Part shown: piece after piece, positions 9,783 through 38,401 of the stretch | How positions within the stretch are numbered: the first letter of the stretch is position 1 | Layout: the number at the start of each line of letters is the position of its first letter | Assembly: GCF_000019665.1 (NCBI RefSeq) | Contig: NC_010794.1 | Span: forward strand, 1,984,001-2,048,000 | From: Methylacidiphilum infernorum V4 | GTDB lineage: Bacteria; Verrucomicrobiota; Verrucomicrobiia; Methylacidiphilales; Methylacidiphilaceae | Length of the DNA stretch: 64,000 nucleotides | Reading direction: 5' to 3' | Position numbers and translations under genes: made by a program | Notes under the pieces: model-generated | What the model saw: only the letters and a program-made list of their open reading frames with translations | Databases searched by the model: none | What the model was told of the DNA's origin: nothing

Positions 9783-9860
9783 CTAGCAAGAAAACGAAAT
9801 CCCTGGCAATGGAGTTTGCCGTCCCGCCGGTTCGAAGTACTTGGGAAAACCTCCTTTCTT

Positions 9861-9888
9861 GAAAAGAAAGGCTGATAACTCCTACTTC
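9861..9888 (+). repeat. Leader motif of the efflux operon, copy 1
   Basis: The core GGCTGATAACTCCTACTTC is preceded by AAAGAAA. A near-identical copy (GGCTGATAGCTCCTACCTC, preceded by AAAGAA) occurs at 11788-11813. Both lie downstream of a predicted promoter and upstream of an efflux gene. The copy here is about 22-49 bases before the ATG of the outer-membrane factor. It could be an operator or RNA regulatory site; this is inference. Confidence 0.4.
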
Positions 9889-9909
9889 AACAACCTGGGA
9901 TGCAAACAG

Positions 9910-11727: not shown

Positions 11728-11787
11728 AAAAACAGCTTACTCTTATTGGGCGATGGGGCTCGCCGACCGTTAACCGCCGTTCTTTTC

Positions 11788-11813
11788 AAAGAAGGCTGAT
11801 AGCTCCTACCTCT
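11788..11813 (+). repeat. Leader motif of the efflux operon, copy 2
   Basis: Matches copy 1 at 9861-9888 with about three differences over 25 bases (core GGCTGATAGCTCCTACCTC). It lies roughly 60 bases downstream of the predicted promoter at 11699. A weaker relative, GGCTGACAGCTGCT, is at 55997-56010 before the response regulator. Confidence 0.4.
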
Positions 11814-11932
11814 AAACTAAAAAAAACAATGAGAATGGGGCGGAAAACGGTCAACTTTAGAATCAATTTCAACTCCTTCTTTTTTTTCTTTTCCTTGTTC
11901 CAAGGGAAAGGGCTGGGTTTTAGCCACCGGCA

Positions 11933-37066: not shown

Positions 37067-37097
37067 TTGACCCAAGGCTTTCTCTCCTTAATATAAT
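37067..37097 (+). promoter_or_regulatory. Predicted promoter upstream of the structured RNA and ygfZ
   Basis: TTGACC at 37067-37072 and TATAAT at 37092-37097, with a 19-base gap, or TAATAT at 37089-37094 with a 16-base gap. Transcription would begin near 37104, about 58 bases before the first helix of the RNA-like segment. Confidence 0.4.
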
Positions 37098-37161
37098 AAA
37101 GAAACAAATAAATAGCTTATCGCTGTTTATGCCTCTTTTCCCTAGAATAGGAAATCAAGAA

Positions 37162-37517
37162 TGTCAACCACCCCCGACTGAATTCGGAGGCTTGCCTTAC
37201 GGCCATGCCTGGGTTGACAAGGAAAAGCGGTACCCAACCCGCTGCGTTGCAAGGAGTAGAGGAGACCCTCGTCGGGATGCTTCCTCAGTCCCGACCTCTA
37301 GAAGCCGGGGTTGCAGACAACCCTGAGAGCATGGGCGCTGGCGGGCTCCGGCAGACGGCCGACATGCAACATTCCCGAAGGGGAGACGCCCCGAAAGGGG
37401 TGCCTCAGTTGGCCCGCAAGGGCAAAAAAAAACGGCCACCCCAGAAGACCTGGGGGAGCTTTAACCAAAGGAGGACGCGCTTTCCTCCCCAGTCTGAATG
37501 CTGGGGTCTCAAGCGCG
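37162..37517 (+). ncRNA. GC-rich multi-hairpin RNA-like element, possibly a stand-alone HEARO/omega-RNA
   Basis: About 356 nt of much higher GC than its surroundings, holding at least ten stem-loops. TGTCAACC (37162-37169) pairs with GGTTGACA (37212-37219) and encloses CCGA/TCGG. AGCGG/CCGCT is at 37226-37243. TAGAG/CTCTA enclosing GTCGGGA/TCCCGAC is at 37257-37300. GGGTTG-CAGA-CAACCC is at 37308-37323. TCCC-GAAG-GGGA is at 37373-37384. CGCCCC-GAAA-GGGGTG is at 37387-37402 and GCCC-GCAA-GGGC at 37412-37423; these two have GNRA tetraloops. CCCCAG/CTGGGG occurs at 37439-37455 and again at 37487-37506. The last is nested in CGCGCTT (37476-37482)/AAGCGCG (37511-37517), which ends just before the ygfZ ribosome-binding site. 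I found no match to RNase P, tmRNA, SRP RNA or common riboswitches. The class is inference. Confidence 0.55.
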
Positions 37518-37525
37518 GAAAGGCG

Positions 37526-38401
37526 ATGAACGAAAAAAAACTCTATGAAAGCTTGGTCCAAGGGAATCCCGGATGGTGTGAGCTTTCCGGTCAAGCGATT
37601 TGGAGAATCTCGGGAAGGGATAGGATCAAGTATCTCAATGGGCAACTCCCGGCGGATATCGCTTCTCTGCCCCCAGGCTGCGCGCTGCAAACGGCGGCAC
37701 TCAACCGCAAGGGAAGAATGGATTGCGAACTCTGGATAGCCCATCATCCCGAGTTCCTCTTTGTAGACTGCCCAAAAGAGATTGAAGAAGCAACGGAAAA
37801 GCGGCTAACAAGTTTTCTTGTAGCGGATAAAGTTACCATAGAGAAGCTCGGCGGCCAGTTTTATCTCTACCATTATTTCAGTCCCGATCCACCCAAGGGT
37901 TTCTCCTTTTGTTTCCAAAACAAAAGGTTTGGCATTCCCGGATGGGATGTCTGGTCGGAGAGGAGACTGGAAGACTTTGGCTGCCCAGAAGTTCCTCCTG
38001 GCGTGCAAGAAAGCCTGCGGCTCGAGAACATGATTCCCCGGTGGGGCAAGGAGTTAACCTCCAACACCCTGGCCTTGGAAGCTTTTTTATCCAAGGATTC
38101 CATAAGTTTTACAAAAGGCTGTTATGTGGGACAAGAAATTATATCCAGGATTCATCACATAGGTGAGATAAACCAGCTTTTAACTCTCCTTATCGCTTTA
38201 GATGAAAGCATACCCCAGCTCGGGCAACTTTACTATCAATCCCGGCCTGCAGGCCGACTCACCTCTAGCGGCTATTCATACGGCTACAATAAAGCCGTTG
38301 CCCTAGGCTATATCCGCAAAGAGTACAGGAAGGAACAAGGGATCGTTCAAATAGCCGGCCAGTCCCTGAAAATCCTCAAGGCTCCACCCCCTATTGGCTA
38401 G
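37526..38401 (+). CDS. ygfZ: YgfZ/CAF17-family folate-binding protein
   Basis: 291 residues from the ATG at 37526 (MNEKKLYESLVQ), with GGAAAGG 4 bases upstream. A longer upstream frame runs through the GC-rich RNA element and is not coding. The family helps iron-sulfur cluster assembly using tetrahydrofolate and is related to GcvT. The signature is FTKGCYVGQEIISRIHHIGE (the KGCYxGQE motif, with the functional cysteine). The early block RDRIKYLNGQLPADIASLPP and NRKGRMDCELWI (GcvT-like sheet) agree. Expression is probably affected by the structured segment directly in front. It ends 20 bases from the convergent 38422 gene, with an AATAGT/ACTATT hairpin between them. Confidence 0.85.
   Translation: MNEKKLYESLVQGNPGWCELSGQAIWRISGRDRIKYLNGQLPADIASLPPGCALQTAALNRKGRMDCELWIAHHPEFLFVDCPKEIEEATEKRLTSFLVADKVTIEKLGGQFYLYHYFSPDPPKGFSFCFQNKRFGIPGWDVWSERRLEDFGCPEVPPGVQESLRLENMIPRWGKELTSNTLALEAFLSKDSISFTKGCYVGQEIISRIHHIGEINQLLTLLIALDESIPQLGQLYYQSRPAGRLTSSGYSYGYNKAVALGYIRKEYRKEQGIVQIAGQSLKILKAPPPIG

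Follow-up and report, generated by a model that had tools for sequence, protein, structure and literature searches.

The hairpin-rich stretch directly in front of ygfZ in Methylacidiphilum infernorum V4 is a stand-alone HEARO, the omega-RNA of IscB, and the whole insert that carries it is a leftover mobile element with the guide RNA of this Cas9-like nuclease. We consider it likely that a non-autonomous IS200/IS605-type element, made up of the HEARO and a right end, landed precisely at the junction of the ygfZ leader and the ATGA with which the gene begins, and that the mechanism built on this reading below applies. The RNA family itself is already known, as a curated Rfam entry. The exact start-codon insertion, unseen by the preliminary description of this DNA, is the more interesting part, and what is new is the placement of such elements at start codons across the family, which goes beyond anything that description claimed. 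Coordinates refer to the window, the whole stretch of 64,000 nucleotides that was analysed.

Table 1. Features of the ygfZ locus, in window coordinates.
Feature	Position	Strand	Basis
Promoter-like -35/-10 pair	37067..37094	+	motif scan, TTGACC-16-TAATAT; shared upstream block
Candidate omega-RNA guide position, ~17 nt	37146..37162	+	native ygfZ leader just left of insert; G008 aligns up to junction
Whole insertion, 363 bp, no target duplication	37163..37525	+	empty site in G008; five genome copies
HEARO / IscB omega-RNA core	37163..37390	+	RF02033, 96.5 bits, model 1-211; covariation, 24 relatives
Element interior, site of iscB in IscB-bearing relatives	37391..37475	+	hairpins only, no iscB remnant found
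Conserved right end with terminal hairpin (37476-37517)	37476..37525	+	same end in 22 copies; fold
ATGA, target/TAM-like motif; ATG = ygfZ start codon	37526..37529	+	empty and occupied sites
ygfZ-like gene, GCV_T / GCV_T_C folate-binding family, 291 aa	37526..38401	+	Pfam; orthologues in four sister species

A cmscan search of the whole window against Rfam, proposed as a check in the preliminary description, placed the core in HEARO (E 1.6e-18; gathering score 83) over the full length of the model. HEARO alone reached its threshold; a match to astro_FSE, at 16 bits against a required 70, is attributable to chance, and assignment to another RNA family was rejected. The labels "undescribed" and "another unknown RNA class" in that description therefore fall to a curated family matched from end to end, while the sequence features that it listed, high GC and many hairpins, are borne out. 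The strand from 37163 to 37530 has a minimum free energy of -165.2 kcal/mol (z = -3.8), and none of 100 shuffled sequences was equally stable. A CCCCAG/CTGGGG hairpin occurs twice, at 37439-37455 and at 37487-37506; the terminal hairpin is formed by the CGCGCTT/AAGCGCG helix. The GC content is 0.57-0.64 over 37150-37524; the excess claimed over both flanks is clear just upstream (0.39-0.43) and weaker downstream, inside ygfZ (0.46-0.57), so that the contrast is chiefly on the left side. The proposed covariation test gave changes on both sides with pairing kept in 20 of 42 predicted pairs of the HEARO core, among 24 relatives or copies; as divergence of the elements took place both before and after insertion, these changes do not by themselves prove selection in V4. 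The window copy shares with HEARO and IscB omega-RNAs the full-length covariance match, the GC-rich multi-helix fold and an RNA that starts at the left end of the element. It differs in that no iscB follows: short hairpins fill the interior, where iscB lies in elements of the relatives G009, G011 and G001.

The boundaries of the insert are defined by an empty site. Orthologues of ygfZ are found in four sister species at 64-71% identity, and in one of them (G008, 71%) the site reads ...CCCTAGGCATAGGGAAGAAAAAA directly followed by ATGAACG. In V4, ...CCCTAGAATAGGAAATCAAGAAT is followed by 363 bp and then ATGAACG. The junction thus falls exactly before the ATGA of ygfZ, and comparison with the G008 site shows no target duplication; the right end, earlier put at 37517, moves to 37525. 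No insert was found at ygfZ in the other 12 genomes compared. Since the insert sits exactly before this ATGA, the position of the 5' guide is occupied by the native ygfZ leader. The preliminary description had also noted a -35/-10 pair ahead of the element, and a single such pair was indeed found, against 0.1 expected. The block CTCAAAGATTGA around its -35 box recurs, with small changes, upstream of ygfZ in the four sister species; the pair is probably the native ygfZ promoter, and would transcribe the guide, the omega-RNA and ygfZ together.

From 37205 to 38401 a frame of 398 aa runs without a stop across most of the element and on into ygfZ, presumably by chance. This amends the earlier remark that no stop-free frame looked coding; the ygfZ orthologues begin at the ATG at 37526, so we do not read the frame as coding. 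That the element encodes an N-terminal extension of YgfZ, as the open frame might invite one to propose, is scarcely credible given the Rfam match, the covariation and the exact empty site, and was rejected on the common start of the orthologues together with that site.

The V4 genome (G000; one contig of 2,287,145 bases) contains five HEARO copies, scoring 88-104 bits and 72-90% identical to each other over the HEARO. Four lie in front of pgl, a sigma-like gene, ygfZ and a zinc alcohol dehydrogenase-like (ADH) gene, and the fifth (L003) lies at the 3' end of an RNase D-like gene. The search for homologous segments that had been suggested thus succeeded, with further copies in related genomes; the suggested search for iscB elsewhere in the genome detected none. 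No RRXRR domain was matched in V4, and the best hit of an IscB protein search (E 0.058, 29% identity over 55 residues) has counterparts in all five members of the genus. At the window locus the next gene is ygfZ, with no adjacent iscB. The earlier suggestion of a HEARO that has lost its nuclease and sits directly before ygfZ is therefore upheld: the locus is incomplete as an IscB locus but remains a member of the HEARO family. An adjacent iscB is not needed for such membership, and stand-alone copies are known. Y1 transposase (Y1_Tnp) likewise has no match in V4; it is present in most of its relatives, with 4-48 matches in the four sister species. V4 may carry a divergent transposase, a serine recombinase or a plasmid-borne IscB; the V4 genome paper lists about 20 IS605-class loci (PMC2474590).

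Two other roles for the V4 element have to be weighed against these data. An intact-looking omega-RNA could act in trans, guiding an unrecognised effector (a divergent IscB, a Cas protein or a plasmid-borne nuclease) to a target that it binds or cuts, and the presence of both an intact IscB and stand-alone HEAROs in G009 makes trans use possible in relatives. We regard this as very unlikely in V4, where RRXRR is absent and the weak IscB match is shared throughout the genus. Somewhat less improbable, though still unlikely, is that the HEARO was kept after the loss of IscB as a cis-acting regulator or stabiliser of the ygfZ mRNA. The V4 copies have retained their scores without any IscB, and four of the five are gene leaders. 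Yet the five stand at unrelated genes, the element is at ygfZ in no other species of the family examined, and the copies, similar over the HEARO as a whole, show no separate conserved regulatory core. The V4 element is most likely an immobile, nuclease-less fossil that serves as the ygfZ leader.

HEAROs occur together with RRXRR proteins in four relatives (G009, G011, G005 and G001), and eight genomes of the family have neither. A phylum-wide search of 388 genomes turned up HEARO in 4, of which three belong to the genus of V4, with almost none outside the Methylacidiphilaceae. The IscB-bearing IS200/IS605-type elements of these relatives (G009:C1:1050620, G011:C63:3724) have the same RNA and ATGA at the right junction; unlike them, the window copy has no nuclease, and V4 has no Y1 transposase. 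The right-end hairpin of the stand-alone copies is shared by the IscB elements of G011 (L112, L113), whereas the right end of the G009 IscB element (L110) differs. In one G009 copy (L009, G009:C1:1988120-1988263), IscB residues 1-20 are joined to residues 413-440. This copy is an in-frame iscB deletion, intermediate between the IscB-bearing and the stand-alone element, and it shows how stand-alone copies can arise. One genus displays the steps from an IscB-bearing element through an in-frame iscB deletion and repeats lacking the nuclease to a genome in which neither a nuclease nor a transposase was detected.

The junctions of other copies resemble that at ygfZ. When copies in G009 and G011 were compared with near-identical flanks in G010, the junction fell directly before ATGA in L009, L015, L021, L024, L030, L010 and L014, with a few bases differing at the left junction of L010. 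In the empty site of L018 the ATGA at the junction precedes a start codon by 24 bp, and those 24 bp are missing when the site is occupied. The left flanks of the V4 pgl, sigma-like and ADH copies are too diverged for base-exact comparison. ATGATGA follows three V4 copies (L001, L002 and L005), one ATG more than in the pgl and ADH relatives; the extra triplet either belongs to the end of the element or reflects a gain of 3 bp. The right end with its hairpin is the same in 22 copies from four genomes and two genera, and its low covariation would fit a DNA signal. A conserved subterminal hairpin and the absence of target duplication beside a fixed ATGA motif are as in IS200/IS605-type elements. 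Y1 is found neither in the element nor in the V4 genome, and the element is therefore at most a non-autonomous derivative. The right ends of L009 and L110 read GAGGAGGTTT and GAGGAGTTTT, each followed by ATG; that of L009 makes a good ribosome-binding site for the following membrane (ABC-2-like) protein. A Shine-Dalgarno sequence supplied by the element was rejected as a general rule, as no copy beyond these two has a well-placed one.

In a tree of HEAROs the copies cluster by genome, with those of G011 in two groups. In V4 (L005) and G009 (L030) the start of the ADH gene is occupied by elements that share only 53% identity. In G009 (L015) and G011 (L014) it is the start of a gene encoding a 77-aa small protein rich in Cys and Lys that is occupied, by elements 69% identical. 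Each of the four is far more like other copies in its own genome than its same-site counterpart. The simplest reading of these sequences would be independent insertion at the same start codon by different lineages; homogenisation within genomes after a single shared insertion is an alternative.

How general is placement at start codons? Of the 21 nuclease-less copies in four genomes whose right end is known, 16 abut a start codon (4/5 in V4, 6/7 in G009, 2/5 in G011 and 4/4 in G005, where starts rest on open frames only). One of three IscB-bearing copies does so, giving 17 of 24. The exceptions are L003, where the ATGA is at the very 3' end of the RNase D-like gene, L007, about 13 bp before a probable trpC start, and L027, L029, L112, L113 and L114. 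Of 556 ATGA sites in the window, 14 are predicted starts (up to 29 on a generous count), 64 are intergenic and 478 are coding. Starts thus make up 2.5-5% of all ATGA, or 18-31% once coding sites other than starts are set aside; both rates were derived from a single 64-kb window in which genes were called crudely. Against the 18-31% expectation, 16 of 21 has a p of 9e-9 to 3e-5, or 1e-7 to 2e-4 when L018 is not scored as a success, an excess measured in one family.

Part of this excess may reflect intolerance of coding insertions. Taken further, the ATGA motif and purifying selection might by themselves account for the family-wide pattern, leaders being the harmless places left; most ATGA sites are coding and no mid-gene insertion was seen, but 71-76% of copies lie at starts, well above their share of permitted sites. 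We hold this account to be a serious possibility, if somewhat short of an even chance; it concerns the family-wide pattern and is compatible with the identification of the element as such. To the bolder proposal, that IscB/HEARO elements of this family target start codons as a strategy, with ATG plus A serving as target and TAM and host promoters parasitised for guide RNA, we give the same tentative weight. If true, such targeting would put the 5' guide in a host-transcribed leader and spare coding sequence.

The mechanism we favour for the non-autonomous element at ygfZ starts from the native leader at the guide position and the ATGA on the other side. The IscB omega-RNA has a 5' guide, whose length of ~17 nt we take from IscB structures, and the TAM adjoins the target (PMC9640706). 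The RNA-guided nucleases encoded by IS200/IS605 elements cleave sites not occupied by the element, as shown for TnpB (PMC11870625). The element would have been moved by a Y1 transposase since lost from V4 or never resident there. From the native promoter, one RNA would then run through leader, omega-RNA and ygfZ; with an IscB present, this RNA would mark the uninterrupted ygfZ site (guide plus ATGA) for cleavage and so help the element to be retained. In V4, with no IscB, the RNA would be inert as a guide and act as a structured 5' leader only. Two factors could bias such elements towards start codons: the match of the target motif to ATG plus A, and the survival of those insertions that fall within transcribed leaders. 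The guide lies upstream of and outside the element and would therefore be made only if a host promoter reads in, which is why transcribed leaders would favour survival; landing between promoter and start codon would supply that transcription. Start-codon placement thus offers a concrete, testable answer to how a 5' guide encoded beyond the edge of an IscB element comes to be transcribed.

In the TnpB omega-RNA the guide forms the 3' end, so that a transcript initiated within the element extends into it. The IscB/HEARO guide, in contrast, forms the 5' end and would have to be transcribed from a promoter of the host. In both, as in the retention or gene-drive model for the TnpB omega-RNA, the guide records the insertion flank and would thereby lead to cutting of the empty site (PMC11870625). 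The window copy further agrees with previously described stand-alone HEAROs in its lack of an adjacent nuclease and its ATGA/GTGA-type target; it differs in its start-codon placement, of which the open papers searched, a set outside which the key HEARO/IscB papers fall, make no mention and which may have been described elsewhere. Stand-alone omega-RNAs or HEAROs without an adjacent nuclease, and an ATGA/GTGA target for HEARO, were reportedly described by Weinberg in 2009 and Altae-Tran in 2021. Apart from the HEARO, the window contains two fluoride riboswitches (RF01734) on the forward strand, at 9796-9891 and 11740-11815, about 1.9 kb apart.
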